DNA of 45,439 nt, taken from Nannochloropsis salina CCMP1776. Its lineage: Eukaryota > Sar > Eustigmatophyceae > Eustigmatales > Monodopsidaceae. Under the pieces are notes generated by a model. It did not search any database. It saw nothing but the letters and a program-made list of their open reading frames with translations, and was not told the origin of the DNA. Of this stretch, positions 8,929 to 45,439 are shown piece by piece. The stretch lies in assembly GCA_004565275.1 (NCBI GenBank), contig SDOX01000101.1, positions 2,919 through 48,357 on the forward strand. The letters are read 5' to 3'. Positions within the stretch are counted from its first letter, which is position 1, and the number at the start of each line of letters is the position of its first letter. The position numbers and the translations under genes are program-made.

Positions 8929-9640
8929 TAACTGACCTAGCGTTTGAACTGGATAAATAGCTGATTATTCAAGACACTGATCGACGGTCTATTTTGGTGC
9001 AATTGGATTTGCAGAAGTAGAGGTCTGGACGCATTTGAATCTCTCTGGTGCAATTGGATTTGCAGAGATTCAGGACTGCTTTAATTGGTAATTGGATTTA
9101 CTAGATTAAAAACAGCATTTGATTTGATCTGGAGGCTGAATATTGAGCTGGCCAGGATCACAAACTCAAAGTCATGAGTGATATGGATGACTATAGAATG
9201 GCAATCTTCAGTGGAAGATTGGAGGATTGGGACGCGTGAAAACGCGATATCGAAAACTGCAATAGGTGTGGTAAATACGGGCATAAGGAAACAGAATGCC
9301 TCGTAAAGAAAAATGGTGGAGGTCGAGCGGGACCTCCTAATAATGGAAAGAAATCGGGCCGGTATGAGCGTGTACCTGGCAACCCCTACAATGGCCCTGG
9401 CAAAGGCGGGCGCATTAGTTACGGACGGGAAAATGGAGGCCGTGGAGGCCGTAATGGACGTGGCCGTGGCAAAGGATTGCACGGCGGAAAGGGTTGTCGC
9501 TATTGTGGAAGCGCAGACCACTGGGGCAATGAATGCCCGAAATCTAACCCAAAGGAACATTCCTACACTTGCCTGCTAGCTAACAAAAGGACGGATACAA
9601 GCATAAGGCAGATGAAATCGACTTCTGGTATGGTGGATAG

Positions 9641-17540: not shown

Positions 17541-18671
17541 TTAGTTATGGAAGAAAAGTAACTGCTTCACAACCTTAGCTCTTGCGCCAAGTTCAAGCGC
17601 TCGTGCAGCAAACAACCAATCAGCATTATGTGCTTGCTCCGCTCTGGACCCTACAGGCAAAGATGCAATAAATCCTTGCACGGACGTTACAATTCTTTTC
17701 GAAAAAAGTATACCACCCAAGTCCATGGAACCTAGTCTCCACTCACCTCCCAGAAGAATCCCACTGGTGGTAAAATCAGTCGCTACCATGTCCCATAGCT
17801 CTCCTCTTTCCCAGGCAAGCATTCTTTCTGTGTATTTGTGCATTGCCTGCCCCCGAACGTTTTGAGCAGCATTGGATAATTGCTGGATTGAACCATATTG
17901 CGTATCGGAGGGCAGTTCAAGCTCTAGTAATGTCTCTTTTAGATAGTTTGGATGGTAACAGTTGTCACCATTTGTGACAAGAGCATGCGTGCACCATGAA
18001 CATCGAACTAAGTCCGCTACAGCCACGTCTGTTGCTTGATAGAACACATGATTGTTATAACGGCAGATCTTAATCATGGACGCCTTTCCTTCTTTACGTG
18101 CTATTTCTCGCGCCTCCTCTTTCGAGCACTTGAAAGGCGCCGCGCGTTTAATTGCAATATCAAAAAACTTTTCGTCAATATCAAGAGCGTACACGTGGGG
18201 ATAGGGCTCTACTGTGTTCAACCAAAAGTATCGCGCGATGGAGTCAACCACGGGTATACCGCGAAGCTCAGTCGGTACCAGGGCGAAGTCCATGCTCAGT
18301 GTAGGGTAGGGGAAAGAAACGGAAAGTCGTTGCTGGTATAAGAGACTATGAATCAGCCCTTTCACTAGATCAGCCTGTTCGTGGTGAACTCGAATAATGA
18401 CCCGCACATGATGGTGGATGCTGGTGGCATTCGACACAGAAGGTGCTCTCAGTCCTTGACTGCCCAGCCAGGGTTTTGACTCCTCCTTGAGTGGATGAAA
18501 TGGAGTAGATGACAAGATGGTTGCCGGGTTTGATGATAAAGATGACGATAATGATGCAGACAAAAATGAGCGCAGCAAGATAATAGTGAGCATTCCAACC
18601 GAGCATTGCAAGAGCACTCGCCCGATTCGTTGCCGCGTGTGCCGCCGGATAGGCTTCCTCCCGAATGACAT
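17541..18671 (-). CDS. GT2-like type II membrane glycosyltransferase
   Basis: I take the ATG at 18671 (376 codons) because the longer open frame upstream begins only with TTG. A basic N-terminus is followed by a hydrophobic anchor at about residues 18-38 and a Ser-rich stem, as in Golgi transferases. HHHVRVIIRVHHEQADLVKG (about 86-105), followed by a SLLYQQ stretch, resembles the start of GT-A family 2 domains (VxVIIPxxNE). Near 229-244, THALVTNGDNCYHPNYL fits a metal-binding D-x-N/DxD-like segment. The C-terminal part ends in AKVVKQLLFFHN before TAA. It is intronless and divergent from the epimerase fusion gene with about 1.2 kb between them. Substrate unknown; the glycosyltransferase call rests on fold-like motifs and context. 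Confidence 0.65.
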   Translation of the reverse strand: MSFGRKPIRRHTRQRIGRVLLQCSVGMLTIILLRSFLSASLSSSLSSNPATILSSTPFHPLKEESKPWLGSQGLRAPSVSNATSIHHHVRVIIRVHHEQADLVKGLIHSLLYQQRLSVSFPYPTLSMDFALVPTELRGIPVVDSIARYFWLNTVEPYPHVYALDIDEKFFDIAIKRAAPFKCSKEEAREIARKEGKASMIKICRYNNHVFYQATDVAVADLVRCSWCTHALVTNGDNCYHPNYLKETLLELELPSDTQYGSIQQLSNAAQNVRGQAMHKYTERMLAWERGELWDMVATDFTTSGILLGGEWRLGSMDLGGILFSKRIVTSVQGFIASLPVGSRAEQAHNADWLFAARALELGARAKVVKQLLFFHN

Positions 18672-19868
18672 TCTCTCTATTTCGAAAGGTATGAGAGTGC
18701 ATTTATATGAGTACAAAGTCGCGAGTTCAACTATCCTCCTTGAGAAGGTATTTAATCAAGTCGAGGAAAGCAATTTAAAACACTATCAGATGTGACGGAT
18801 TTTTCTTGTACCCACAAGTCTCTTCATACAAAGTTGCATTAATCGTTGCAATAATCGTTGCGCATACTCTGTCAATTGTTTCTCAGATCACGCAAGTAAA
18901 AGATGCAATCGCCTTCTGGGGGATATTTACATATCCAACTCTCAGAGCGAGCGTTAATCAAGTCAGAGAAGGTGAGGCTGAGGGCAGCTGAACGCTTTAC
19001 CGTGCTCATATCGGAAAGGCATGTTATGATATCTTGTCAGCGTGATAGCCATCGGAATTCCTCAACACGACAATAGAGTCCCACATGTTTTTCCTTTAGA
19101 AAACACGGTTCCATTTTGAGAAAAAATAAAAGTCGGTATATATGCAAAACTCAAGAACACTGTTCGCAGACATAGCGCATCATCATGAAGATCACCGCGT
19201 TTTAACGGCTGGAAGAGTCGAATTACCAGGGGATATTCCGACTTGCATAATCAAAGTGGAATCGAAAGCGCGAGTGGAGACATCGCAGTGCAAATAAAGT
19301 GTAAATGAGATGCGATTGGAAGAAATTCATTTCAAGGCTGTCTAAGGGCCACAGAAGGCTCCTAATATGTTTCTAACGGCTAAAATAGCAAGTACTCTCA
19401 GTCCCCCTCAATTACACAAAATTTCACTGTAACTTTGTGTAATTGAGTGTCGCTCTAAAGGGATATTTTTCCTGGCTCATAATTATCCCTGAATCTCATT
19501 TCTCTCATTTTGTAAGAAGAAACCATTTCGGCGTATGTATCTGCCTTGAAAAATGCTACTCATGGCTACCATTGATATGTGAAACGGTACCGGAGCTTCT
19601 ATCGCACTCTTTGCGTGCCATCGAGCTTTTACCTTATTATCGATGCCATTAATATTTATCTTATATCGACAATACACGCATCACCTGCGACTATATCTCC
19701 TGATTTCTTCCTGCTGTGAAATCTACAGTATAAGCCCCTCACGTAGAGCATATTTATCTTTGTCTGACCTTGAATATAAATCTCACCTTAGCACTGTTTT
19801 ACAGGACACAGTGTCTCGCGCGACAGTTCTATATATCTGAAAGTAAGATTTGGCGTCTTGATAAAGAA
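18672..19868. promoter_or_regulatory. Divergent intergenic region between two glycan genes
   Basis: This 1.2-kb stretch separates the minus-strand GT2-like gene from the plus-strand epimerase fusion, so it should hold both promoters. A partial RB repeat lies at 19329-19409. A 61-codon plus frame (18806-18991) contains a hydrophobic stretch but has no further support. I see no clear TATA box or operator. Confidence 0.4.
19329..19409 (+). repeat. Interspersed repeat 'RB', partial copy
   Basis: The segment with GGGCCACAGAAGGCTCCTAA and CTCTCAGTCCCCC matches the middle of the RB family (23428-23540). It lies in the divergent promoter region. Confidence 0.5.
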
Positions 19869-21920
19869 ATGGCACTTGTAAAGCGCGTCTGTAGAACAGC
19901 GGCCATCATGGTCCTGAGCTCGATGATCTTTTGGGGACTTATAACCTACTTTACACTGCAACACATGCTCGAGGATGATTCGAATGAGCCTTTCAATTTT
20001 ATTTCTACAGAGGAAGATGTCAGCTACACAGAAGGAAGAGTCGTGTCCTTAGATCTTGAAAACGTAACAGTTCTGATAACAGGCATTGCGGGATTTATAG
20101 GGTATTCAGTAGCCTCTAAACTTCTCGACCGAGAGACTTGTAATATTGTTGGCATTGATAATTTCAACGATTACTACGATGTATCATTGAAGTATAAGCG
20201 AGCAGACTTATTGAGTTACTGGGATAAGGTACGCATAATTGAAGGGGATGCATGTAATGCTACCCTTATGCGGAACGTTCTGGAAGAGTACAAGGTGACC
20301 CATGTACTCCATTTAGCAGCTCAAGCTGGTGTGCGATATTCGTTGGAAAACCCGTTAACCTACGTACGCAATAACATTCAATGCTTTGTTGTCCTCCTCG
20401 AAGAGCTTAGACGCGTCAAAGCGAATTCCGATAATGGTTTCGTCCCTCATCTTGTGTATGCGTCGTCATCCAGTGTCTACGGCGGCAATAAAAAGGTGCC
20501 CTTCGAAGAGATTGATCCTGTTGAAAATCCCTCGAGCCTTTATGGCCTGACAAAACGAGTAAATGAGCTTCTAGCGCTGGTGTACTCTCGGAATTTTGGT
20601 ATTTCTTCTCTAGGTCTACGATTTTTTACTGTGTATGGTCCCTGGGGCCGGCCTGACATGGCGCCATACAAGTTTACTGAAAGCATCCTTAAAGGAGGGA
20701 ATATTACAGTGTTCAATCATGGAAAAATGGCTCGAGATTTTACATACATTGATGATATTGTATCGGGAATAAGTGCTGCGCTAGAATACCAGCCATCTTC
20801 TCCGCTGATTTTGAATCTGGGTCATGGCAATCCCGAGAACGTTCTCGATTTGGTCAAAATAATTGAAAATTATACAGGACGGCCTGCAAAGCTTCAGTTC
20901 ATGGAATCCATTGTAGATTTGCCTCTAACTTCTGCTTCAGTCAAGAAGGCGAAGAAGCTTCTATCGTACTCCCCACGCGTGAGTCTGAGAGAGGGCATGC
21001 AAAGCTTTATTGATTGGTATTCTTTATACTCAGGAGAACAATCAATCTGTGCAATAGAATGTGCTGATAAGGACCGTTGTATATCCTCACCATTTGACGA
21101 TGTTTACGCTGAATCAATCGAAGCAACACGTAACTGTGAAACTGTCGTTTACACTGTCTCTTTCGGGTCGCACTATGGACTTAAGGAACCTCCGTCTACT
21201 CTTTCATGTAATAGAGGGTCTTGCTGTTCTATTGCATTCGTGACGAAACTCGGTACGACATCCCATTCGAATAGAATGTGGAAAGAAATACTTGTGAAAG
21301 CTGATAAATTCCTATTCTGGGATTCTCGTCGTATGTCGAGAGTCATAAAATTAACGCCAGGCAAATTTTTTTCTCCGTCCGTAAAGTATGCTATTTACGT
21401 AGATGTAAAGTTGCAATTGAATATGGATCCCAAGACCCTTGTCCAAATGCTTGGCGATGGCGTGAACCGCACAGCGAGCCTTTTGGCAGTGCGGCATAAC
21501 GTCAATTCAGATCCGTTTCACGAACGTTCACATATACTCGGAGCCAAAAAGGTCTTGCGCAGTGCGACTTATACCGTTAAAACAATGAATCATCAAGTTG
21601 AGCAGTATAGAAAGGATCTAGCGTCTCGCAACATGTCAATAGGGAACATGATTGATGGAGCACTCTTAGTGCATAATTTAGAAAGCTCATCAGGTCGATC
21701 GTTTCGTTGTGCTTGGTCTAAAGAGTACTACAGAGGTTCGGACAGAGATCAAATATCGTTCCCTTGGATTCTTGCATTAGAAGCCAACAAAGCTGGAGTA
21801 AATCTTGCAGCAGGAGAAGAATGGTGCAAAATTAGTGAAAATCCGCCGAGCTATGTCAGAATTTTATCAAATGCACTTCATTGGAATAAAAACTCGAGAA
21901 CTATTGCGGATATTCGGTAG
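19869..21920 (+). CDS. UDP-glucuronate 4-epimerase fused to a DUF616 glycosyltransferase-like domain
   Basis: 683 codons from ATG at 19869 to TAG; the open frame upstream begins only with TTG. Residues 9-30 form a membrane anchor. Residues 67-388 are an extended SDR sugar-nucleotide epimerase: G72-x-x-G75-x-x-G78 NAD motif (VLITGIAGFIG), GIDNFNDYYD (95-104), LHLAAQAGVRYS (148-158), Ser cluster ASSSSVYGG (198-206), catalytic YxxxK (Tyr225, Lys229) and RFFTVYGPWGRPDMA (251-265). This set is typical of GAE enzymes making UDP-galacturonate from UDP-glucuronate. Residues about 420-640 match DUF616 (the TOD1/MUCI70 family): KYAIYVDVKLQL (506-517), LLAVRHN (539-544) and RDQISF (626-631). Arabidopsis MUCI70 is linked to pectin synthesis. 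One reading frame spans both domains without introns. The fusion suggests coupling of donor synthesis and transfer (inference). Confidence 0.88.
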   Translation: MALVKRVCRTAAIMVLSSMIFWGLITYFTLQHMLEDDSNEPFNFISTEEDVSYTEGRVVSLDLENVTVLITGIAGFIGYSVASKLLDRETCNIVGIDNFNDYYDVSLKYKRADLLSYWDKVRIIEGDACNATLMRNVLEEYKVTHVLHLAAQAGVRYSLENPLTYVRNNIQCFVVLLEELRRVKANSDNGFVPHLVYASSSSVYGGNKKVPFEEIDPVENPSSLYGLTKRVNELLALVYSRNFGISSLGLRFFTVYGPWGRPDMAPYKFTESILKGGNITVFNHGKMARDFTYIDDIVSGISAALEYQPSSPLILNLGHGNPENVLDLVKIIENYTGRPAKLQFMESIVDLPLTSASVKKAKKLLSYSPRVSLREGMQSFIDWYSLYSGEQSICAIECADKDRCISSPFDDVYAESIEATRNCETVVYTVSFGSHYGLKEPPSTLSCNRGSCCSIAFVTKLGTTSHSNRMWKEILVKADKFLFWDSRRMSRVIKLTPGKFFSPSVKYAIYVDVKLQLNMDPKTLVQMLGDGVNRTASLLAVRHNVNSDPFHERSHILGAKKVLRSATYTVKTMNHQVEQYRKDLASRNMSIGNMIDGALLVHNLESSSGRSFRCAWSKEYYRGSDRDQISFPWILALEANKAGVNLAAGEEWCKISENPPSYVRILSNALHWNKNSRTIADIR

Positions 21921-25090: not shown

Positions 25091-28000
25091 GGTTTTTGGG
25101 CCCTAGTCGACCAAACCTTTGAACTGGATAAATAGCTGATTATTCAAGACACTGATCGACGGTCTATTTTGGTGCAATTGGATTTGCAGAAATAGAGGTC
25201 TAAACGCATTTGAATCTCTCTGGTGCAATTGGATTTGCAGAGATTCAGGACTGCTTTAATTGGTAATTGGATTTACTAGATTAAAAACAGCATTTGATTT
25301 GATCTGGAGGCTGAATATTGAGCTGGCCAGGATCACAAACTCAAAGTCATGAGTGATATGGATGACTATAGAATGGCAATCTTAAGTGGAAGATTGGAGG
25401 ATTGGGACGCGTGAAAACGCGATATCGAAAGCTTCATTGGTGCCAAGGACCCAGAGATGGCAGATATCATTGTTGGATTAACCAAGTCACCGATTTCTGG
25501 GGACGAGGAAAAATCTTATGATGACAAGAATGCGAAGAGCTACTTCATTCTCAAGAAGTACTTGAAGGGAGCAGCCGCCAGTTTGATCGAAAAATTTCGT
25601 CAAGATAAAAATGGGGCTGGTGCATTCCGAGCACTCAGGGATAAATACGAGTTAAGGGGAGAGACTCAAAAGGCATTACTTATGTCTGAGTTCAGTCACC
25701 TCAACTTCAGTGAAAATGGTGATCCGGGGGAAACTTTCGAGGCAGCTGAGGAGCTGGCTAGAAAAATGAAGAATCGTTTCGACGTGGATATTAATGAATC
25801 TCTGCTTCTCACACACCTGATTAACAAAATTCCATCGGTATATGGAATTGTAAAAGTGAGTTTGGAGACCCAAGAGTCGATGACATACGCTAACTTAAAG
25901 TCAAAAATGACCAATCATTTTGTGACAAACGTCGCTAATAAGGTCAAGGAGGACCAATGCTTAGCAGTTAGCTTCAATGGATACTGCAATTGGTGCGGTA
26001 AATACGGGCATAAGGAAACAGAGTGCCTCGTAAAGAAGAATGGTGGAGGTCGCGGGGGACCTCCTCATAACGGAAAGAAATCGGGCCGGTATGAGCGTGT
26101 ACCTGGCAACCCCTACAATGGCCCTGGCAAAGGCGGGCGCATTAGTAACGGACGGGAAAATGGAGGCCGTGGAGGCCGTAATGGACGTGGCCGTGGCAAT
26201 GGATTGCACGGCGGAAATGGTTGTCGTTATTGTGGAAGTGCAGACCACTGGGGCAATGAATGCCCGAAATCTAACCCAAAGGAACATTCCTACACTTGCC
26301 TGCTAGCTAACAAAAGGGCGGATACTAGCATAAGGCAGATGAAATCGACTTCTGTTATGGTGGATAGCGGAGCTACATCCCATATGAAGAGAGACACTAC
26401 GGGATTGACTAATGTCAGACGACATTATGGTCACGTATACGTGGCAAACGGGGAGAAACTAGAAGTATGTTACATCGGAGACTGGCTCATGGAAGTGAAG
26501 CACAGTGATGGGACTGTTAAAGGTGTCATGTTCAAGGATGTTATTGTAGTACCCAATCTGAGTCGCGATCTATTATCTATGGCTAAGATAGATAAAGCTG
26601 GTGGAAAAATCGTTATCCTTGAAGGAAAGGGTACGATTCACAAGGGTGACACATGCTTGCCGATGAGAAAAGTAGATAACATGTATTTGTTAGACTACTA
26701 TGGTAAAAAATGTGAGGAGGCTAACGTAGTTAGCTCACCCGAATTATGGCACCAGAGGTTCGGGCATATGGACTATGAGTACCTGAGACAAATGGGGGAA
26801 ATCGACGGTACCGGAGTACCAAAGGGGATTAAGAAACCTGGTGTTTGTGGAACGTGTGAGCGTGCGAAACACACCAAAAAGAGTTTCGGGACCAAACCTA
26901 GGGAGAGGGCACAAGAGCCTCTTGAACTAGTTCACACTGATGTACTTGGACCTGTAGAAGTACAATCGCTTGGAGGCGCACGATACGCGATTGGATTTAC
27001 CGATGATTACACCCGATGGCGGGTGGTACATCCAATGAAGTGCAAATCGGAATCCTTAGATTGCTTGAGGAGATACATTCAAGATATGAATGTATTACAC
27101 CGTGATAGTAAAGTGAAGACTATGATTGGATTGAGATCCGATAATGGAGGTGAATATACCGGTGTAGACTTCAAGAATTTCTGTAAAAATCATGGCATCA
27201 GACAACATTTTAGCATGCCATATGGACCACAAGATAGTGGAGTTGCTGAAAAATCATGGCACATATTATGCAATATGGCACGGAGTCTTCGTATACAAGC
27301 CGGACTGGAAAAACGTTTTTGGGCTGAAGCATTAAATACTGCAACCTATATTTGGAACAGATCGAGGAATTCTACTCTAGGTGCCGGTGAAACTCCCTAC
27401 TACAAAATGTTCGGAAAGCATGCTAGTGTGGAGCATTTTAGAACTTTTGGATGCAAGGCGTTTGTCCATGATACGTCTATCAGGAGAGGAAAATTTGATG
27501 ATCGTGCTGTTGAAGGGATCCTGATTGGATACGATGACATAGGGAACAATCCTAAATGTTATCGAATTTACATGCCTTCTATTGGAAAATACATTAGATC
27601 TGGTCATGTGACATTTGATGAGGCAACGTTTCCAGCAATGAAGCAGAAACAACCAGTTTCGAGAGTTAAACTACACAATGATGTAGAAGAAGATGACGTA
27701 GATTCTATGGAGACAGTGGGGGCTCATCAGGAGGATGAGGTACCACCCACGAATACAAGTGAGAATGATGACGGCATCGAAGATGATTTACATCACGATG
27801 ATCAACCTGACGATCGTAGTATCGATCATGTCAGAGAGGATATGTCGCAAGTGGGGGCGACAGGATGGAAAGATAGGGATGATATTGTTCAGAATATGAA
27901 TAATATGGGGCGCACGCGAAGCAGGACAAAGGCTCGTGAACGTCGTCGATTGGATCCTGGATCTACATCTATGGGAGGTAATTTAGCCTTCGCTGCAGCC

Positions 28001-29892
28001 TCAGAAATTGTCAACGAGGACTATCATCTTACGGAAGATGAGAGTGAGGTGCGAGCTGAAAGGAGGAGAGCCAGGGATGCAGAGTACCAAGCCCACATTA
28101 AAAACGGCACCTGGGAGTTAACTCCATTACCGAAGGGAGAAAGGTGCATCTCAAGTGGCTGGGTGGAAACTGATAAGCGAGACCAGAATGGCATCATCGT
28201 AAGGAGAAAGGCAAGATTCATTGCAAAGGGCTATAGTCAAGAGTATGGCTATGATTATCTCCATACTTATGCACCGGTTGCATCGATGACGACTATACGT
28301 TTGATATTGGCATTAGCATGCATATTGGATCTTAAGCTGTTTCAACATCCATATTATCCAGCTCAAGATCCAATATGCATGCTAATGCCAATATCAAACG
28401 TATAGTCGTCATCGATGCAACCGGTGCATAAGTATGGAGATAATCATAGCCATACTCTTGACTATAGCCCTTTGCAATGAATCTTGCCTTTCTCCTTACG
28501 ACTATCCCATTCTGATCTCGCTTATCAGTTTCCACCCAGCCACTCGTGATGCACCGTTCTCCCTTTGGTAAAGGGGTTAACTCCCAGGTGCCGTTTTTAA
28601 TGTGGGCTTGGTACTCTGCATCCCTGGCTCTCCTCCTTTCAGCTCGCACCTCACTCTCATCAAAACAATCTGGACATAATTGGCACAAGAAGATTGATGG
28701 ATGGTTCCGAGGGTATGGATTCCACTCTTCTTCTGCGGATCCATGCTTATATACGAAGTTTGGATCTGGTGGTGAATTATTAGTTATCGTCTTATATGTG
28801 GACGATTTAATTATTGCTAGTAATTCTAATGCAATGGTAGATGATTTCAAGCTAGCTATTTCGAGGGAATTTAGCATGAAGGACTTGAAGGAGCTTGGTT
28901 GGATACTTGGTATGGCAATCAAACGTGATAGAGAAAAGAGAGTTATGGAAATCTCTCAGACAGCCTATATCGATATGATGCTGGCGAAATTTAGAATGGC
29001 TGACTGCAAACCGGTCCTAACGCCCATGGAAGGGACTCTGACGAGAATGGATGGCAAGGACGTCAAGCCAGATAATGAATACATGAAGCTAGTGGGTAGC
29101 TTATTGTATGCAGCACTGGTTACGCGTCCGGACATTGCATTTGCAGTGCAATCATTGGGAAAACACTTGCAAGCAGCTGGTACAGAACATTGGATTGCTG
29201 CAAAACGTGTATTAAGGTACCTGAAGGGTACTCGTGAGGTTGGACTCAGATATACCGGTACTATTAGGGGATCATTTACCCTAACAGGATACGCAGACGC
29301 GGATTACGCTGGTGATAAGGATAATAGACGTTCGACGTCTGGTTATGCTTTTACTTTGAGTCATGGAGATGATGTCAACACGATTGATTGGAAAGCCAAG
29401 CAACAAGATGTGGTGGCTCTATCGTCGGCTGAATCGGAGTTGATATCTGCTTGTTCAGCGACACAAAGTGCAGTTTATATTCGTCAACTACTTGTGGACC
29501 TTGGATTTAAGCAAGATGAGCCTACTATGATTATGGAGGATAATCAAGCTTGCATTGCAATGAGCAATAACCAGATTATTCAAAAGAGGACGAAGCATAT
29601 CGATGTTCGATATCATTTTGTGCGTGAGAAAGTTGAGAGTAAGGAAGTAGAACTGGTATACATTCCTACTCAGCATCAACTTGCGGATATCTTAACTAAA
29701 CCCTTATCGAGTATTCGATTAGCGATGATACGTAATCGAATGATGGGTTATAAATCATAATTGGGATCTGGAGACAGCTGTGGGATCAGCTGTAGATATG
29801 TTAGGGATCAGAGATGTGGTTATTATCTAAGTGTGAGTTACAAGGTTTATTGAAATGGATCATATTTAAATGATTAGGAGTACGAGTGGGGG

Positions 29893-30337: not shown

Positions 30338-30731
30338 TTCTGGTGCAATTGGATTTGCAGAAATAGAGGTCTGGACGTATTTGAATCTCTCTGGTGCAAT
30401 TGGATTTGCAGAAGTAGAGGTCTGGACGTATTTGAATCTCTCTGGTGCAATTGGATTTGCAGAAGTAGAGGTCTGGACATATTTGAATCTCTCTGGTGCA
30501 ATTGGATTTGCAGAAGTAGAGGTCTGGACATATTTGAATCTCTCTGGTGCAATTGGATTTGCAGAAGTAGAGGTCTGGACATATTTGAATCTCTCTGGTG
30601 CAATTGGATTTGCAGAAGTAGAGGTCTGGACGTATTTGAATCTCTCTGGTGCAATTGGATTTGCAGAAGTAGAGGTCTGGACGTATTTGAATCTTTCTGG
30701 TGCAATTGGATTTGCAGAAATAGTGGTCTGA
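30338..30731 (+). repeat. 51-bp leader minisatellite, seven to eight units
   Basis: Units containing TGGTGCAATTGGATTTGCAG and AAGTAGAGGTCTGGACRTA repeat with a 51-bp period and very few differences. Copies A, B and C have about two units at the same place. Because 51 is a multiple of three, the array stays open in several frames on both strands; the resulting peptides are by-products, not genes. Confidence 0.92.
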
Positions 30732-33700
30732 TTTACTGAATCGATCCCGTGCAATTGGATTTGCAGAGAGTAAGGGCTGTTTTAATTGGTAATTGGATTT
30801 GCTAGATTAAAAACAGCATTTGATTTGATCTGGAGGCTGAATATTGGGCTGGCCAGGATCACAACCTCAAAGTCATGGGTGATATGGATGACTACAGAAT
30901 GGCAATCTTAAGTGGAAGATTGGAGGATTGGGACGCGTGGAAACGCGATATCAAAAGCTTCGTTGGTGCCAAGGACCCAGGGATGGCAGATATCATTGTT
31001 GGATTAACCAAGCCACCGATTTCTGGGGACGAGGAAAAATCTTATGATGACAAGAATGCGAAGGGTTACTTCACGCTTAAGAAGTACCTGAGAGGGGCGG
31101 CAGCAAATCTTAGCGAAAAATTCCGTTTGGATAAACATGGAGCTGGTGCGTTTAAAGCACTCACTGACAAATATGAATTGAGAGGAGAGACTCAAAAGGC
31201 ATTACTTATGTCTGAGTTCAGTCACCTCAACTTCAGTGAAAATGGTGACCCGGGGGAAACTTTCGAAGCAGCTGAGGAGCTGGCAAGAAAAATGAAGAAT
31301 CGTTTCGACGTGGATATTAATGAATCCATGCTTCTCACACACCTGATTAACAAAATTCCATCGGTATATGGAATTGTTAAAGTGAATTTAGAAACACAAG
31401 AGTCGATGACGTATGCTAACATGAAGTCAAAAATGACCAATCATTTTGTGACTAACATTGCTAATAAGGTCAAGGATGACCAGTGCTTAGCAGTTAGTTT
31501 CAATGGATACTGCAATTGGTGCGGTAAATACGGGCATAAGGAAATCGAATGCCTCGTAAAGAAGAATGGTGGAGGTCGCGGGGGACCTCCTAATAATGGA
31601 AACAAATCGGGCCGGTATGAGCGTGTACCTGGCAACCCCTACAATGGCCCTGGCAAAGGCGGGCGCATTAGTTACGGACGGGGAAATGGAGGCCGTGGAG
31701 GCCGAAGTGGACGTGGCCGTGGCAAAGGATTGCACGGTGGCAATGGTTGCCGATACTGTGCAAGTGCAGATCACTGGGGAAATGAATGCCCCAAGAATAA
31801 AACGGAGCATTCTTACACATGCTTGCTGGCTACCAGGGATATGTATGGGAACTCGAAGCACATGAAATCAAATTCTATAATGGTGGATAGCGGAGCTACA
31901 TCCCATATGAAGAGAGATACTACAGAATTGATTAATGTCAGGCGACATTATGGTCACGTATATGTAGCAAATGGTGAAAAGCTTGAAGTACATTACATCG
32001 GAGACTGGCTCATGGATGTTAAGCACAGCGATGGGACTGTTAAAGGTGTTATGTTTTAGGATGTAATTGTCGTACCCAATCTGAGTCGCGATTTATTATC
32101 TATGGCTAAGATAGATAAAGCTGGTGGAAAAATCGTTATCCGTGAAGGAAAGGGTATAATTAAAAAGGGTGACACATGTTTACCGATAAGGAAAGCAGAT
32201 AACACGTATATCTTAGACTACTACGGCAAACCATGTAAGGAAGCTAATATACTTAGCTCACCTGAATTATGGCACCAGAGGTTCGGACACACGAACTGTG
32301 AGTACATGAGGCAAATGGGTGAAATCGACGGTACCGGAGTACCAAAGGGGATTAAGAAACCTGGTGTTTGTGGGACTTGTGAATGTGCGAAACAAAGTAA
32401 AACGAGTTTCGGGACCAAACCTAGGGAGAGGGCGAAGGACCAGTCGAAGTAGTTCATACAGATGTACTTGGACCAGTCGAAGTACAATCACTTGGAGGCG
32501 CACGATATGCGATTGGATTTACGGATGATTACACCCGATGGAGGGTGGTATATCCAACGAAGTGCAAATCGGAATCCTTAGATTGTTTGAAACGATACAT
32601 TAAGGATATGAGTGTATTACACCGTGATTGTAAACTGAAGACTTTGATTGGATTGAGATCTGATAATGGTGGTGAATATACCGGCGTAGATTTCAAGAAT
32701 TTCTGCAAGAATCATGGGATTAGACAAGATTTTGGTATACCATATGGACCGCAGGATAATGGTGTTGCCGAAAAATCATGGCATGTATTATCAAACATGG
32801 CTCGAAGTCTTCGCATACAGGCTGGGGTGAGAAAACGTTTCTGGGCTGAAGCCCTCAACACTGCTGCCTATATTTTAAACCGATCCAGGACTTCTGCACT
32901 GGGCCCAGGTGAAACACCCTACTACAAGATGTTTGGAAAACACGCGAATATGAAGTATTTGAGAGTTTTTGGATGCAAAGCATTCGTCCATGATACATCT
33001 ACTGGAAGAGGAAAATTTGATGACCGTGCCTTGGAAGGATTCCTGATTGGTTATGATGACATAGGGAACAACCCTAAATGTTATCGAATTTATATGCCTT
33101 CTATTGGAAAATACATTAGATCTGGTCATGTAACGTTTGATGAAGAGACATTCCGGGCGGATATAATGCAACCTAACACTAGAGTTGAAACTTATCATAA
33201 TGAGGAAGAAGATGATAAGGATTCTATCAAGACAGTGGGGGCTCATCAGGAAGATGAGGTACTACCTACTTATACAAGTGAGGATGATGACGGCATCGAA
33301 GATGTGTCACATCACGATGATCAACCTGACGATCGTAGTATCGATCATGTCAGGGAGTTTCCGTCGCAAGTGGGGGCGACAGGATGGAAAAACACGGATG
33401 ATATTATTCAGAATATGAATAATATGGGGCGCACGCGAAGCAGGACAAAGGCTCGAGAACACCATCGATTGGATGATGGATTAGTAACCATGGGAGGTAA
33501 TTTAGCCTTTGCTGCAGCCTCAGAAATTGTCAATGAGGACTATCATCACACGGAAGATGAGAGTGGAGTGCTAGCTGAAAGGAGAAAAGCCAAAGATGCA
33601 AAGTACCAGGCCCGCATATAAAACGGTACCTGGGAATTCACCCCCTTACCGAAGGGAGAACGTTGTATCTCAAGTGGCTGGGTTGAAGCTGATAAGCGAG

Positions 33701-37653: not shown

Positions 37654-38888
37654 ATGAAATCAGCTCAACGCAAATATTTGACTCGACTACAACAGCAAAC
37701 CACGAAGTGGGCGCGGTTGATTTCATTTGTGTGCATTAGCATAATTCTGTGTGCCTTTATTAAGTACTTGGATGGAATGAAGATCTCTGTTCAGAGGATT
37801 CCGTCATCAGCCACTCTCCAAAATAAAGTCAATAAAGTAATAGATTACACGTGCGCGGACTCTTGGGTACTTAAGCATATCAACACCAGCATGCAGCAAC
37901 AAGTAGAAAAGAGGACCGCAGAATGGTACGACTCCTTACCCCTGCAGCTTGAGCGCGCTTACGACAAAGTGTCATCGCAACAAAGTGGAAATCCCAAACC
38001 CTCAAACGAGCCAGACAAATGGGATCGCTTTGACGTCATGATGCCCGTCATGGCAGGCGCATGTGAAATGCAAAGAATGCCAGAAATGAGCGACGATGGA
38101 AAATTTATTTGCGGTATCAAAGACATCCCCAATGAGGCACAACGACCTTGCATTGTCTACTCAATTGGTACGTCTTGGTCTCATACGGGCCCAAAATATT
38201 AGAAGAATCTAGCTGATTTCATTGTTCGTGCTTCATCCATCCTAACCTTAAACATCAACAAAACCAAGGTTCTGCTGATCGATGGGACTTTGAAGCGGCG
38301 ATTTATAAATCTACCGCATGCGAGATCCATACATTCGACTGCACAGTTGACAGCGCTCACATTCCAGAAGAAATCCAAGACAGAGTGATGTTTCATAAAG
38401 TATGTATTGGCAATTCTTCGAAGAGTGACTCTTCCAATAATCTGATATTTATGAATTTAAAGGAGATTATGGACTCACTTGGACATACCTACATGACGTT
38501 GCTGAAGGTAATTTCAAAAAGACATAAGGGTTTGGAAGGTCGTCAAGCTTTTGAATAGACGGGAAGCTCTTGTATATTGATACACGTCATCTCTCTTTCA
38601 CTCTAGGCTGATATCGAAGGCTATGAATATGGGATGTTCAACGAGATCCTGCTTGAGGACGATGTGGAGCTACCTGAGCAAATTTCCTTCGAATTACATT
38701 ACAGAGTTGCACCAAACTCTCATCTGACTTGGAAATCCCGAGAGAAAACAGCAGGAGAGATTGCCCTCTTTGCCATTCGTTTATATGAGCAAGGTTATCG
38801 CGTTCTTTCTCGAGAGGACAACAGGTACTCTCGGTGCAGGTCGGCTCGTATTAATCTTAACACCAAATTGCCTCTTCATTTGCGATAA
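37654..38888 (+). CDS. METTL24-like (Methyltransf_22) membrane-anchored methyltransferase
   Basis: Three exons can be joined: 37654-38167, 38269-38507 and 38607-38888. The introns are GT-AG, 101 and 99 bp, phases 1 and 0. The product is 344 residues. Residues about 19-38 form a type II anchor. Exon 1 ends in RPCIVYSIG and joins SADRWDFEAAIY, matching the C-x-V-Y-S-x-G ... F-E start of the SAM-binding domain of METTL24-like proteins. IHTFDCTV and VMFHKVCIG follow, then LLKADIEGYEYGMF (the D-I-E-G motif shared with FkbM methyltransferases) and ISFELHY. The C-terminus ends in a Cys-containing SREDNRYSRC segment, as in the family. Substrate unknown; sugar O-methylation is a guess from the neighbours. 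Its promoter region carries an RA repeat and an LTR fragment. The introns are short and AT-rich, unlike those at the window edges. Confidence 0.8.
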
Positions 38889-39808
38889 TTCCGAATTATA
38901 TTTTGAATCATTATCATACTACCTACAGGCTTTGTTCGCATTGTACGGAATTTACAGTAGCCCGGTTTCGGTGTCCGAAAGGTTCCCGCAGCATGATCAA
39001 AAATATTGAATCGCTACAATCGAATCCATGATAGCTTCCGGAGTCCACAAAAACCAAAAATCATGGGTGCAAAATGACTCAATACTCTGTTTACGGGAAC
39101 ATTTCTCCCTCAATAAGTTGTCATGTATAATATGGAGTTTTCATTAATCTACTATTTGTTTCGAAATTTTAGACCATTTAAAAGAATTTGTCATCTTATG
39201 TTCCAGGGATACGATACTTAAGACAACATAACATTAGCAAAGAATCACCGTTGATAAGGAGAAAGAGTATTGACTTATTCCAAACAATTATTTTTTCAGA
39301 ATATACGTTAATTTTTACAGATGACTTTTTAGGCGAGAGTTTACAGCTGTCGCTAGCACGCCGGGTATTGCCTTCTATTGAATTCTCCACTGTCATAGCC
39401 ATATTGATCTCGATCAGTTTACATCTATCCATGTTACGATGTGATCATGCCATTATAGCTATATATTGCAAGGCATCACTCCTATGCAGTCAACTATCGA
39501 GAGAATGTACAGTTCACAGGCCTCCTTTAGGTTGTTGAGCTTTCTTCATACCCAGCTCCTGCTGGTGTGAACTATCCGAGGAAAAGTGGAGAATCTATTT
39601 AGCTCTGGCGTTTTCAAATGACATTTCGTAGACGCGTGGTATGCCAGCGGCTATTTCGGTTGTTGATCTAGGATTATTTGGGGCGGTATTATGAAAGCTT
39701 GGAATGTATTGCATGTCTATCGCCGCGAGTTTCGATGCATAGAAACTGAAAGGGTGCTTCCACCCATAAATTTCTATGCTTAATTGGACGATTTCATCAG
39801 AAGGCAAA
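38889..39808. other. Intergenic, no supported gene
   Basis: AT-rich. A minus-strand frame (39807-39595, no ATG, TTG at its start) encodes about 70 residues with a protein-like look (LSIEIYGWKHPFSFYA) and runs up to the edge of the 121-bp repeat. It may be a piece of a broken gene, but I cannot assign it. Confidence 0.35.
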
Positions 39809-39929
39809 TTGACTATTTGATACAGATAAACAATGAGTCTCGACGGCTAGTCGCTGAAGATTTTTCCAAGATTACTAGTCCAGAGGTCCTTAGTATTGGA
39901 ATTCAGATTCGGGAGGGAGATCAGACAAT
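39809..39929 (+). repeat. 121-bp perfect direct repeat, left copy
   Basis: Identical over all 121 bases to 43153-43273, with a spacing of 3,344 bp. It encodes the DYLIQINNESRRLVAEDF ... IGIQIREGDQ segment of the fucosyltransferase-like protein. Confidence 0.95.
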
Positions 39930-40476
39930 GAAAAACGCCTTGAAGTCTTCGGCTTACCAGATCACTACACATGAAAATAGAAAATACTTCCTGGATTGTG
40001 CCTCGCTAATCGAACATCAGCTAATAAACGAGCTCGACAAGTGGAACCACAAAAGAATTTTATGGTATCTCGTAACCGATTCAATAAGTTCCAGGAAAGA
40101 GCTGAAGCAGCTAATAGGAGACAAGCTTATTGTGAACGTAAGACATGAAATCGCGCACTCACGACATTATTCCCTTAAACTTAGTGGTGAGCATGGTAAG
40201 AGCACGAGCGAACAGGGAATAGTAGAGGCTACAACAAATGAGGAAGTTATAGAGGCATTTCGCTTGGCAGCCGCTGAAAACTGGCTACTGTCGCTAACAA
40301 ATTTTAAGGTCATCAGTGGCTGGAGTGGATATGGGCGAATAGCATCCGCTCAATCTATGATGACGGGGACTACTTTTTCGATACGAGGTTCCCCTCAAGG
40401 AGGGAAATTGAACATCCAAGATCGAAATTGCTCGCTAAATCAGTCTGACGACATACTCAAGTTCTCAAATATATAA
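39809..40476 (+). pseudogene. C-terminal half of a fucosyltransferase-like gene
   Basis: The open frame has no ATG at its start (it runs in from 39784). It encodes the repeat-borne segment with IGIQIREGDQ and continues for about 180 residues to TAA at 40476. Visible features are RKYFLDCASLIEHQL, ILWYLVTDS, VNVRHEIAHSRH and LLSLTNFKVISGWSGYGRIA. This order (R-x-G-D, then V-T-D-S, then ISxxSGxGRxA) fits the acceptor and nucleotide-sugar parts of GT-B fucosyltransferases of the GT23/GT37 type. The N-terminal half is downstream at 42501. As drawn, this half has no start codon or membrane anchor, so it should not be made alone. Confidence 0.65.
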
Positions 40477-42500
40477 CGGATAGTCGATTATACTAGATAG
40501 TTTCGTTTTTAAATTATGCACTAGCTTTGGATGTTCGCTCGCATTCGACTCGTCCTTTTCGATCAGCGAAGGTCTAATCTTTCTTCCTCAGTTGCAAGTC
40601 GCCTCGTTGCCGCTTTTATCCTTTCCTGTTCCATTTTACTCACCATTTGCACCGTAGCCCATGAACCAGGAGTCGTTAGACTTTGGTTTCTGTCATCCCT
40701 TGTCAGCAATTGCGCATCGTCGTTTGTCTTGTATGAGGCCGGGCCTAGAAGAATGCCCTATATTGGTTGAATCTTGATTCTATCCAGACTCCAAAACCAT
40801 AGGGTTTGATTGATACGCCTCCCTCGTGATGAACATGACCAGCTCTACGATCAACCTCGCACGCGCCGCCAACGGCCAACGACCGCTTTCCCACGTGTTG
40901 AAACATGGGTTAATGCTCTTAAAGCGACGCTCACAGCGTGCCCTTTGAGGGTAAGGGAAGACCCCCCGGAAAAGTTGTGTGCATTCTCATGTGAGCTATG
41001 TTAGGAGTTCAGAGGAAAAAAACAACAAGAATTGTGCCAAAATACTCTCCCGTGAAGGTTTGTCCTCACGCTATGGGACTGATCGCCAGAGAAAGATGGC
41101 TACGACATGCAATGCCCGAGTGGAGTTCCCGAGCCGAGTGGAGGGCGTCCGAGAAGGGAAAAAGTCATAATTGGATCCTAATTAAGTTAGCATTTCTAGG
41201 GTGTGTGAGGGCCACAGAAGGATCCTGATGGTTTTTCAAGCACTCAATGAACAGGGCCTGAAAGGCTGGTCCGTGGCCCACGGATCGAAAGAACTCAGTT
41301 CTACCTTTCGCTTACCTTTCTGAGCGCCAAAGCGTCTTTTTTCTTCGTTGTTTGAGACGAAAATCCTCCGTTCAGCTTGGCTATCTATTCTTGTTTGCCC
41401 TTTTTTTTATTGTGTGTGTTGTTATCTTCTTTGGATTATGAGCAAGACATACTATTTCCAGTTGATCACTTTTTCGCCCCTAAGCCGAGTCCTAGACCTC
41501 GGCGACTCGTGTATACTGGATCCCACCCCACCAACCACTTCACGCCCAAAGCCTCAAGAATACCATTATTCTATTCCTCTTGCTCTTTCAAGACACTCCG
41601 ATGGAGTCCATACTCCCATTAACTTTTCCAAAATGTCGTGAACGTTTTAAAATGGCCGCACACTAAGAAAGTGAAATTTAAGCCCCCACTTGGCCATCCG
41701 AGTGGGGCACTTCTTGAAACGCTCTCCAAATCGTCCCACTTTCGTACTCACTGGCGAGTGGGCGCATTCTATGGACTGGGGCCAAGGCCAGACCGTCACC
41801 CCTACTTATATTCGGTCATTGATGAATGGCAGCCAATCAATCGATGGTCAGTTATGACTCATGCATGAGACTGCACCCGCTCCGCAGTACCGGGCCTGTC
41901 CAAACTGAGGGGATTCAAAAAGGGAGTATTGCGAAGGGGGAACTACTACAGGCGCTCCCTCGCGGGCTTTGGGGCAGAGCCCTAGGGAAAGACGTATTTA
42001 AGAGGGTCAAACACGCATTCTCTGATCACAAATTGGGGGCCCGCATATTCTGTCTGGTCATTACAATTAGCTCAAGCATCCTTCATGAAGAGAATTGCAT
42101 CACTGATTGGTGACCTTCATTGGTGACCCGTAGATGACGCAACTCCCCCGGGCGGGGGCATTCACATTGACAGTTCTAGCGGGCAGCTATATCTGTGGCT
42201 TTCTGTAAATACAGCTCTTCTCGGGGTTTGCACAAGTGAAAAACTATAGGAAACGTCCGGGTTTTTTGCGCCACTGACAATAAAATACTCTGTGCCGCCC
42301 TTTTCTTCCCTCGTGGGTCCCTTTCTCCATGGCGGAGGGGAAGGGGGAGGGAGGAAGGAGGGACGGAGGAAAAGAGGAATAGGGCCAACAGGATGAACGG
42401 ACATAAATTTTTCAAGTGCTTCCTATGTTGTGTCATTTACTGGCAAAATTACGTATCTGTACTTCCTCATTGCAGGTACCCCACAATATCTCGAGGTAAT
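40477..42500. other. Intergenic between the two gene halves
   Basis: No gene supported; frames of 60-97 codons have no motifs. It holds an RB fragment (41191-41316), a stretch of AGTGGGC/GCCCACT-type inverted motifs (about 41660-41765), and a short purine-rich GGGAGGAAGGAGG run at 42335-42380 resembling the window edges. The last part should carry the promoter of the N-terminal half. Confidence 0.45.
41191..41316 (+). repeat. Interspersed repeat 'RB', partial copy
   Basis: Shares CTAGGGTGTG, GGGCCACAGAAGG and GATCGAAAGAACTCAGT with the 3' half of 23305-23575. More diverged than the two long copies. Confidence 0.55.
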
Positions 42501-43304
42501 ATGGGCGACATGACGCGACACGGAATGAAGGTCGCAAAGCGTATTTTATTGTGCATCGCTGCTCTTCAATCCTTGAAGCTATTAAGTATAATTAATCCGA
42601 ATGAAATTTACTCCAGAAACTGGTCATTGTCGGATGTGTCACAAAGAAGCACGAGCAACATTTCAAGATGTACGGGTGAATGGCGATCGACATATGCACA
42701 ACTTCATGACGAAATTCGCAAAGGACGAGCTGATCAGCGTTATCTTGTGGCAATGGGAACAGGAGGACTTGCTGACTCTTTGACTGGGGCTATCACCCTT
42801 TTTTGGGTGGCGCTACTTACGAATCGTGCTTTTCTTATGGATTTCGGGGACGGACTTAAGTACGAGTTTGTTTACGACCAGCCAAACATCAACTGGAGCG
42901 TTGACATGAAAGCACTAAGCCTATACCCCAACGAGACAATTAAAATGAATCATGGAGGTATTCAAGGGAAAGGACGAAATCTTTACGATGCTTTAGATGG
43001 GAAAATGGACCTTAACACCGCACTTGGAGAAGTCCCTGTAATTTTCGTTAGAACTAATGTCGGCCACACTGTAAAGCTACTCTCGAGCATATATCACGGT
43101 CCCGAGCTTCATAAGATGGGAATCTCATCCAGAACTGCTTTCGGGTGTGCATTTGACTATTTGATACAGATAAACAATGAGTCTCGACGGCTAGTCGCTG
43201 AAGATTTTTCCAAGATTACTAGTCCAGAGGTCCTTAGTATTGGAATTCAGATTCGGGAGGGAGATCAGACAATCATCTTTTCTCCCACGTCAAGCACGAG
43301 ATGA
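42501..43304 (+). pseudogene. N-terminal half of a fucosyltransferase-like gene
   Basis: The ATG at 42501 opens a frame of about 258 family-like residues up to 43273, then a few unrelated codons to a stop at 43304. Residues about 11-31 (VAKRILLCIAALQSLKLL) form a type II anchor. YLVAMGTGGLADSLTGAITL and LLTNRAFLMDFGDG recall the N-terminal pattern of xyloglucan-type and related fucosyltransferases (G-x-x-D/N-x-L ... A-L-L-T-x-R-x-x-L). The half ends in the 121-bp repeat at IGIQIREGDQ. Continuing in phase from the identical repeat at 39809 would give an intact protein of about 440 residues, so the gene is permuted and not randomly decayed. Third positions are A/T-rich, unlike the MutY exon that begins one base later. 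Confidence 0.7.
43153..43273 (+). repeat. 121-bp perfect direct repeat, right copy
   Basis: Identical to 39809-39929. Its right end is the exact border to GC-rich sequence encoding the MutY C-terminus. Confidence 0.95.
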
Positions 43305-43710
43305 CTGTCTTCAAGGCGACCTACACTGGCGCGTCAGGTACATGCGAAAAAGCGAGGGGGAAGGAAGGGGGGGGAATGGAATAGCTCGTGGAGCACGCGA
43401 CGGCGACAACGGGAAGCAGGAGGGCGACAGAGGCGAGGGCTCAAAGAAGAATACGGATGTACGGGCCATGCACACAGCATATACATGTACTATACTCACG
43501 GACCCTACCCGCCATATCAACTCCTTTGCGTTCCCCCCCCCCTCCTGCTCTGTCCCCTCCCACTTTTCCTCCCTTCTTCCACCCCCAGACCGGGCTACCA
43601 CCCTCGTCACGGAGAGGGACGTCGCGTGGATGGACGACCGCCGCCGAACAACCTCCGGTATGACTACAGGTGTCCTCAAAATCCTGGCTTTGATCCGCTC
43701 TCAAACGTGA
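43274..43710 (+). CDS. MUTYH-like: C-terminal exons of a MutY/MUTYH-like adenine DNA glycosylase
   Basis: Two exons, 43274-43337 and 43589-43710, are joined by a 251-bp C/T-rich GT-AG intron in phase 1. The product reads HLFSHVKHEMTVFKATYTG, then a linker, then DVAWMDDRRRT and SGMTTGVLKILALI before TGA at 43708-43710. The H-x-F-S-H-x-x...x-V-F/Y block and the final A-W/aromatic ... S-x-x-x-x-x-V-L-K-I/V-x helix match the Nudix-like C-terminal domain of MutY, which recognises 8-oxoG opposite A in base-excision repair. The helix-hairpin-helix and Fe-S parts should lie upstream, but the sequence to the left of 43274 is a fucosyltransferase-like gene, so the gene as shown is cut. Codons are GC-rich. 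Confidence 0.6.
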
Positions 43711-44885
43711 GCAAGGGGGGAGAGGGAGGGAGAGAGGAGAAAAGGAAATCGATCGGACACCTGTGCGGAAAATGCTGCGAGGGTCAGCGGGAGCGGTGGA
43801 AGAGATCGGGGAAGGAGAAGGAAGGAGGAGCGCAAAGGAGAATGGAACGGGGTGTCCGTGGTTGAAGAAGGAATAGGGGAGTTGGCAAGCGAAGGGACCG
43901 AGGGAAGGCAGGAGGAAGGGAGGGGAGGAAGGAGGGGGAAAAGAGGCTTGATAGATTTGCGTAAGCAGGTTGATTGATTCATAAAGATGTCACACGAGAT
44001 GATTGTAATGTAACGAGGAATGTAATTGTCGAAGCCTCCTCCACCGCCATCGTCCGGGAGGGAAACCTCGCTCGTTCCCTCCTTCCATCCCTCCCTCCTT
44101 CCCCTTCTCCGTCGCCAATACGAGTTGCACAGATGTTCTTCATTTTCCGCGTAATTTATGCTTTTGATATACTCAAGTCGCTCGATGGAAGCGTCCAATA
44201 GATGCGATTCCTTTCACATAAACAGGTACTTTCCGGGTCGACGATTGATCTCTGCCATCTAACAATATGAATTTCTTGCACGCGGTCAATTTTTCTAAGA
44301 TTTCTTTTTCGTCATGTATCAACATGAAAAACACACTAATGTATCTCTATATTAATACCTCCGGCTCGGCCAGAAGGAGGCATATCCGCATTCACCTCCT
44401 GCGCCATGTCTTGTCATTCTCTTAAAGTAACTTCACCCTGCTGCCTCGAGTGGCACAGAGGCCATTCGATCCGAGGAAACCTATCTACTCTCCCCTGTTT
44501 AAATCATTCTCTTCTTCGCCTTCTCGTTCTCAAGGGCATTTTTTTGGAAGAATATTTTCCCTTTCTGCCACTCCATTCATATTTTCTCAAGCCTCATAGC
44601 TCTTGCTTATATCTCCTTCTTCCATCCCTCCTCTTGTACGATGGGGGTGGAGAGAGTGGCAAAATAAGCGTGCACGTCAGTGAGAAGGGCGCCGAAGGTG
44701 GGGTAGGACCTGAGGGAGGGAGGGAAGGGAGGGATGGAGGGAGGGAGGGAAAGGGGGGTAGGATGGAATGTGAGCAAAATCGACGTGCGAAGTCATGGAT
44801 AGGGGAGTGGGGGAGGAAAACCACAAAGAAGGAAGCGAGAAGGGGAGGGAAAAGCAAGAGGAATTGAAGGTGGAAGGGCAAATAC
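43711..44885. other. Intergenic between convergent MutY and desaturase genes
   Basis: Should hold the 3' ends of both genes. It is rich in GGGA/CTCC tracts (43712-43740, 43900-43950, 44070-44110). Further desaturase exons toward the C-terminus must lie here on the minus strand, but I could not place one with confidence. Confidence 0.4.
44713..44750. repeat. GGGA simple repeat
   Basis: Repeated GGGA/GGGAA units, the mirror of the CTCC intron tracts when read on the desaturase strand. Confidence 0.85.
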
Positions 44886-45004
44886 GCACTTGAAAGGTAT
44901 ATTGAACTCTCGACAAGTCTCTTGGATGACGGGTGTGAGAGTCCGAAGGACGCTGTGGGACAAGCCCGGGAACAGATGGTGCTCGATCTGCAGGTTGAGA
45001 CCAC
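44886..45004 (-). CDS. Exon of a front-end fatty acid desaturase (third His box)
   Basis: On the minus strand an acceptor (CTTAAG at 45010-45005) opens an exon encoding GGLNLQIEHHLFPGLSHSVL, then RTLTPVIQETCREFNIPFKC, followed by a GT donor at 44885. QIEHH is the variant third histidine box of cytochrome-b5-fused front-end desaturases (delta-4, -5, -6 and -8 acyl and sphingolipid types), where Q replaces the first His and the box helps bind the di-iron centre. The spacing to LFPxLxH and the following helix fits the family. Upstream exons (b5 domain, His boxes 1 and 2) lie beyond 45439. Regiospecificity cannot be told from this exon. The exon is short (119 nt), in GC-rich host style. Confidence 0.8.
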
Positions 45005-45439
45005 CTTAAGAAGGGAATGGAGGTAGATGGTATGAGGAAAGTGGAGGGAAGAGAAACGGCGGTTAAGGCGTTTGAATGGACGATGTAAATACATATACAG
45101 CCAATCGAAGGGCTGAAAAGAGAGGGCCGGGGGCCTAGAGACATACATTCTCATACATATATATATATATATATATATCAAAGGGCGAGAAAGAGAGGAC
45201 CGGAGGACAGGACATATATAAGTATATATATATATGTACATGTCTATACACACAGCCAGTCCAAGGGGGGGAGGGGCGACACAACGCATGCGGAACACGT
45301 CGCACCGGGAGAGTAAAACAACGGCGGAGAAACATCAGGCATGTCGGCATGTGAGAGAAGGGCCAGATAGGCCCAGGCACAGGAAGGCGGGAAAGAGGAG
45401 TAGGGAGGGATGGCCAAAGAGGGAGGGAGGGAGGGAGGG
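45005..45439 (-). other. Intron of the desaturase gene with simple repeats
   Basis: No exon is supported. AT dinucleotide runs lie at 45155-45179 and 45211-45238, and a GGGA run closes the window from 45420. Confidence 0.6.
45155..45179. repeat. AT dinucleotide microsatellite
   Basis: About eleven AT units in a row, with a second imperfect AT block at 45211-45238. Confidence 0.9.

Follow-up and report, generated by a model that had tools for sequence, protein, structure and literature searches.

A fucosyltransferase-like gene in permuted order between two copies of an exact 121-bp direct repeat in a Nannochloropsis salina contig

We analysed a stretch of 45,439 nucleotides of Nannochloropsis salina CCMP1776 (contig SDOX01000101.1, positions 2,919 to 48,357; hereafter the window) and found a fucosyltransferase-like gene whose C-terminal half lies upstream of its N-terminal half, with the same 121 bp at both outer ends. 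On balance, the segment 39809-43273 probably represents a single full turn of a 3,344-bp head-to-tail unit, extended by 121 bp. The unit, which bears an XG_FTase (GT37)-type gene, would have been present either as a tandem repeat on the chromosome or as an extrachromosomal circle. At the internal junction of such an array or circle, the spacer which separates the two halves in the window (spacer X) would lie upstream of an intact gene running from the N-terminal half (N-half) through the repeat to the C-terminal half (C-half). In the contig the turn would have been opened inside the gene, leaving both halves incomplete.

The two copies of the direct repeat are 100% identical and lie on the plus strand at 39809-39929 (R1, in frame and opening the C-half) and at 43153-43273 (R2, in frame and closing the N-half), with a start-to-start spacing of 3,344 bp. 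The first-pass annotation of this DNA had reported a perfect repeat of this length, spacing and position, and an exact match search confirmed it. A 120-nt pattern of the repeat, with up to 3 mismatches allowed, was found at two places in the window and at no third site; none of 100 dinucleotide shuffles gave a match to this pattern, and the 120-nt word had no match in viral contigs. The repeat ranks ninth by length among the 25 longest listed of 112 direct exact repeats of at least 40 bp. The other 24 of these fall within 8.7-35.4 kb, in copia-type elements and a 51-bp tandem array, with a maximum of 456 bp. Similarity stops at the ends of the two copies: of 100 flanking bases, 28 agree to the left and 24 to the right, which is about chance. 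The repeat is internal to the sequence, 39.8 kb from one window end and 2.2 kb from the other, and is thus not a contig-terminal repeat.

Both half open reading frames (ORFs) are on the plus strand, and their order in the window is the C-half (39930-40476, to the stop codon), spacer X and the N-half (42393-43152, from an ATG at 42393 with an alternative ATG at 42501), which agrees with the order described in the first-pass annotation. The N-half contains the match to the N-terminal part of XG_FTase. Reading 42501-43273 and then 39930-40476 gave a single frame of 439 codons plus a stop, without an internal stop, so that passing from 43273 into 39930 does restore a continuous protein. This 439-aa protein carries the motifs REGD and VTDS, and inspection by eye also shows a hydrophobic segment close to the N-terminus. 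The joined protein matched Pfam XG_FTase (PF03254) at 8.6e-10 and 38.2 bits, exceeding the gathering cut-off of 23.4, and the N-half by itself matched at 5.8e-07 and 28.9 bits. In a phmmer search against solved structures the joined protein matched 5koe, a galactoside 2-alpha-L-fucosyltransferase, with a whole-sequence E of 4.9e-06. The alignment consists of three collinear stretches (query 58-125, 173-257 and 371-398) which keep the N-to-C order, the middle one ending within the repeat and the last one falling in the C-half. We take 5koe and the related entry 5kop to be Arabidopsis FUT1, a GT37 enzyme; the overall similarity to these galactoside 2-alpha-L-fucosyltransferases is low. Third-position GC is similar in the N-half (0.43), the repeat (0.38) and the C-half (0.45).

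Judged by these sequence matches, the gene is an XG_FTase/GT37-type fucosyltransferase-like gene. We treat the halves as one gene because of the collinear order and the shared in-frame repeat, and not because of the C-half match by itself. The sequence comparisons support the window showing this one gene in permuted order, the normal order being N then C. The gain in score on joining (38.2 versus 28.9 bits) and the collinearity with 5koe also support the earlier proposal that the permuted gene represents one turn of a 3.34-kb circle or tandem unit. A search for relatives of the joined protein, part of a survey of viral and prokaryote collections, gave one stretch which matched a pattern and none which was confirmed. 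Brown-algal fucosyltransferase candidates are placed in family GT23 in one report (PMC11468063).

To the right of R2, the plus strand reads HLFSHVKHEMTVFKATYTGAS from 43274 up to a splice donor that follows 43337; the reading resumes behind an acceptor that precedes 43589 and reaches the end of a stop codon at 43710, which together gives a 61-aa C-terminus. The truncated exon (43274-43337, plus strand; ends picked by eye, GT/AG checked) contains an H-x-F-[ST]-H pattern and is followed by the last exon (43589-43710, plus strand; acceptor picked by eye, AG checked). Pfam NUDIX_4, the MutY C-terminal domain, matched the spliced peptide at E 0.02, with 15.1 bits against a cut-off of 35. Against a profile that we built from the C-termini of six bacterial MutY proteins (that of E. 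coli and five picked among 30 listed of 97 records) the peptide scored 12.9 bits, and the best of 2000 shuffles (1929 reported) scored 8.0, none reaching 12.9. The H-x-F-[ST]-H pattern is present in the peptide and in five of the six bacterial proteins, the sixth (Phocaeicola) having HVLSH. There was no MutY among the 25 solved-structure matches of the peptide (to E 10). Over its 21 codons the first right-flank exon has a third-position GC of 0.76; a host exon at the left window end reaches 0.94, the two fucosyltransferase halves 0.43-0.45. The right flank is likely, but not proved, to be the last two exons of a MutY-type DNA glycosylase gene, cut in mid-exon at 43273/43274, with no upstream exons adjoining it. 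Six-frame Pfam scans of 1-8.6, 16.6-24.7 and 36.0-45.4 kb gave no MutY catalytic domain, which is a weak negative as intron-split genes are missed: these scans overlooked both the NUDIX_4 match and an intron-split methyltransferase gene, and 8.6-16.6 and 24.7-36.0 kb lay outside them. Convergent with the MutY-like gene is an exon encoding the C-terminal part of a fatty acid desaturase (44889-45005, minus strand; QIEHHLFP; FA_desaturase 6.6e-09).

The first-pass annotation had not noticed that this right outer border falls in mid-exon of an apparent MutY gene, where GC-poorer gives way to GC-richer DNA. GC content per kilobase starts at 0.52 and 0.57, stays mostly within 0.39-0.49 between 2 and 43 kb (exceptions being 0.52 at 7-8 kb and 0.55 at 36-37 kb) and ends at 0.54 and 0.49. 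A 3-mer score, which was trained on parts of the window itself and covered 1-4 kb and 36-45.4 kb, changed sign on the left between 1751-2000 and 2001-2250 and on the right between 43001-43250 and 43251-43500, the latter coinciding with the end of R2 to within the 250-base step. It should be noted that this score is noisy, single steps within spacer X being positive and 44251-44500 negative. By the same score both gene halves are island-like, as is the left flank (L; 39032-39808), and the right flank is host-like. At the right outer border, in mid-exon of the putative MutY gene, GC-poorer DNA meets GC-richer host-like DNA; two unrelated loci are thus either truly joined here or the join is chimeric. 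L is an AT-rich intergenic stretch (GC 0.388 for 39030-39808) which begins behind the stop of a methyltransferase gene and runs up to the left border of R1 and gave no family match in six-frame Pfam scans. Spacer X, from the C-half stop to the first ATG of the N-half ORF (40477-42392), includes purine-rich stretches at 42335-42378 and likewise gave no Pfam match in six frames. An empty site in which L would read into HLFSHV (14 open codons, by eye) was set aside as too short and AT-rich.

Three joins have to be accounted for: L to the repeat, the repeat to the MutY-like exon and, across X, the C-half to the N-half. A real X would mean that the gene followed itself head to tail, in a tandem array or a circle, and we infer such a repeated or circular state, present or past, for the unit. 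At its right end the turn would then have been joined to mid-exon DNA of the MutY-like host gene and at its left end to intergenic DNA. Both outer joins sit at the ends of the same 121 bases. They may be real, through insertion by end joining or as a copied-in fragment, or may have been made by the assembler on linearising or collapsing a repeat. The same picture could be produced by a circle copied slightly more than one turn, by a fragment of a tandem array or by an assembler walking a loop once. A more specific scenario seems rather unlikely to us, namely that a small 3.34-kb circle or array with its upstream spacer amplifies a cell-surface fucosyltransferase gene in an alga-like eukaryote and has gone back into the chromosome at the margin of an island of polysaccharide genes, with truncation of the MutY-like DNA-repair gene of the host.

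Several observations weigh against the head-to-tail unit. A second unit, an intact copy, a circle or an array was not seen within the window. By itself, the C-half scored only 10.7 bits on XG_FTase (E 0.19), which is below the cut-off, and two other families at chance level (E 0.038 and 0.077) outrank XG_FTase for it. The three stretches aligned to 5koe are individually weak, with independent E values of 0.24, 74 and 30. Spacer X is compositionally mixed by the 3-mer score, so a false join inside X is conceivable, in which case no tandem or circular unit would be needed. Finally, 0 differences in 121 positions allows up to 2.4% divergence of the copies (95% bound), which leaves the recency of the repeat unproved. 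The perfect identity is also less telling because long exact blocks arise between diverged copies in this window. Two copia copies, one at 10.9-14.1 kb and the other at 25.1-28.3 kb, share an exact 456-bp block (13156-13611 and 27386-27841) at an overall identity of 88.7%, with neighbouring 150-column windows at 77-93%. Gene conversion, recombination or assembly mosaicism could each account for this block.

An assembly artefact, in which an ordinary single gene in the order N-half, repeat, C-half has been given false joins in X and at the outer borders, is in our view a rather unlikely alternative. The first-pass annotation had raised the concern that the repeat could be a k-mer overlap. This concern stands as regards its length, 121 being odd and within the usual k-mer range, and the CheckV authors report odd, k-mer-like lengths for exact direct repeats at both ends of linearised circles from assemblies (PMC8116208). 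The position speaks against it: a k-mer repeat is expected at contig ends, whereas the present one is internal to a 45-kb sequence between different flanks. The example lengths in the CheckV text are 55, 77 and 99, not 121. A literature search on 121 as an assembler setting was uninformative. The fusion of compositionally different loci in mid-exon at the right border also speaks for an artefact, as do the simple repeat at the right end of the window and the 456-bp block, if it reflects assembly mosaicism. On the other hand, the assembly crossed exact repeats of up to 456 bp, which suggests that it was not limited to 121-bp overlaps, and both outer joins lie at the ends of the same 121 bp and thus need one cause. 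An imperfect palindrome at 28037-28661, within the second copia element, is 94.9% identical and so not a fresh amplification artefact, though it includes an exact run of 137 bp; a chimera of the multiple displacement amplification type is therefore unsupported.

A real, fixed insertion would be a special case of the head-to-tail unit, and the likelihoods of the two overlap: a 3,344-bp extrachromosomal circle, copied for slightly more than one turn, would have entered at a break with L on one side and the MutY-like exon on the other. We regard this as unlikely. Permuted copies formed via circles have been reported in yeast (PMC3053389), human (PMC7188851) and also cattle; the type of arrangement is already known. 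In wine yeast, region B, a segment from Zygosaccharomyces bailii, entered Saccharomyces through extrachromosomal circles (PMC3053389). That segment, like ours, is circularly permuted, with a gene disrupted where insertion took place; genes A and E are split in some cases, and one copy lies inside COS4. However, the circle origin of region B is backed by eight forms and by several insertion points, with junctions mostly unchanged and 1-2 nt lost or gained in two cases (PMC3053389), whereas we see one copy with a terminal duplication of 121 bp. The segment also resembles the human duplications of the extrachromosomal circular DNA type studied by Takahashi and Innan, with two directly oriented blocks in swapped order (PMC7188851), and relative to the normal gene our blocks are indeed swapped and in the same orientation. 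Those authors compared an unpermuted donor copy and checked reads, while our arrangement is known from one contig sequence. Their screen asks for no block on both sides of the swapped pair, and here 121 bp lie on both sides. Such cases were set aside as likely tandem duplication with partial deletion, but the screen is called conservative and a circle is not thereby ruled out (PMC7188851). L, which is island-like, and the host-like MutY-like exon do not make an obvious empty site, and the lack of a MutY catalytic domain in the scanned parts of the window argues weakly in the same direction. Duplication followed by partial deletion, which is a described mimic of circle-mediated permutation (PMC7188851), would here start from an old tandem pair of complete genes; separate deletions would have removed the N-half of the first and the C-half of the second, and the 121-bp overlap would be due to chance. 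This is less probable still. For independent breakpoints, the chance that the overlap in a 3,344-bp unit does not exceed 121 bp is about 3.6% (121/3344), which is low but not absurd, and exact blocks do occur in diverged copies in this window, so that the identity could stem from gene conversion. A tandem pair nevertheless requires two independent truncations at the same place in the gene, and both halves keep open frames, unlike old pseudogenes.

We also considered whether the halves could work as they stand, as separate genes whose products assemble into a split or permuted enzyme. Each half has an open frame, and about 40 residues are common to the two. However, the C-half frame, with R1, is open only from a stop at 39781-39783 and lacks an in-frame ATG before 39928, where the overlap ends, and past R2 the N-half continues with ten codons unlike the loop-through reading, to a stop which ends at 43304. 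Because the C-half has a stop upstream and no ATG until 39928, a working split enzyme appears unlikely from the two halves as they lie, and as an explanation of the arrangement it is extremely improbable. Trans-splicing of the half genes was also considered and seems unlikely, inspection by eye showing no donor site at the N-half end, where CATC follows 43273.

If the head-to-tail unit and its joins are real, this would be a single-gene permuted insertion in an apparent alga, the exact 121-bp scar could reveal how the turn was copied, and gene amplification would be tied to a cell-surface polysaccharide locus. If the arrangement is an artefact, a gene catalogue made from this contig would report two gene fragments and a truncated MutY although the genes may be intact in the cell.

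Two further kinds of mobile DNA were rejected as sources of the segment. A transposon insertion with a 121-bp target duplication predicts the order N-half, repeat, element, repeat, C-half, which is the opposite of that observed; it would hold only if the window itself were circular, and by eye the window ends have no shared overlap. As for a viral or plasmid circle, a six-frame Pfam scan of 36.0-45.4 kb (E ≤ 1) gave only XG_FTase, FA_desaturase and a weak match to the uncharacterised family DUF7462 (E 0.12), in a scan of frames that detects intron-split genes poorly. The window is eukaryotic DNA, its GAGGG/CCTCC-rich introns and GGREGG-type frames being suggestive of a eustigmatophyte-like alga. 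It has intron-bearing genes and copia-type elements, of which one scanned ORF contains gag, integrase and reverse transcriptase domains, the other elements being recognised by DNA similarity. Relatives of the copia polyprotein were sought in viral sequences (6 matched, 0 confirmed) and prokaryote genomes (67 matched, 0 confirmed), and a 24-nt long terminal repeat word had no match in either of the two collections searched (viral, prokaryote). In the palindrome at 28037-28661, a portion of the reverse transcriptase region is duplicated in inverted form. The 51-bp tandem repeat (8.7 copies, 30339-30779) lies at the 5' end of a third copia element, and 72-bp stretches similar to it are found at 8995-9066 and 25170-25241. 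Rfam gave no match in the window, and no tRNA was found in it (search with the bacterial code).

The GC-poorer stretch from 2000 to 43273, which lies between GC-richer host-like ends, holds genes for sugar chemistry: a methyltransferase (37654-39031, plus strand; Methyltransf_22, product matching at 4e-13 after four introns were spliced by hand), the fucosyltransferase, and an epimerase and a TOD1/MUCI70 domain in one ORF (19770-21920). Two ORFs in this stretch (3714-5171, and 17541-18716 on the minus strand) had no Pfam match above the cut-off. At the left end of the window there is a GC-rich host-like gene without a Pfam match (exons 254-1710, by eye), of which the 3' end is complete and the 5' end apparently lies beyond the window.

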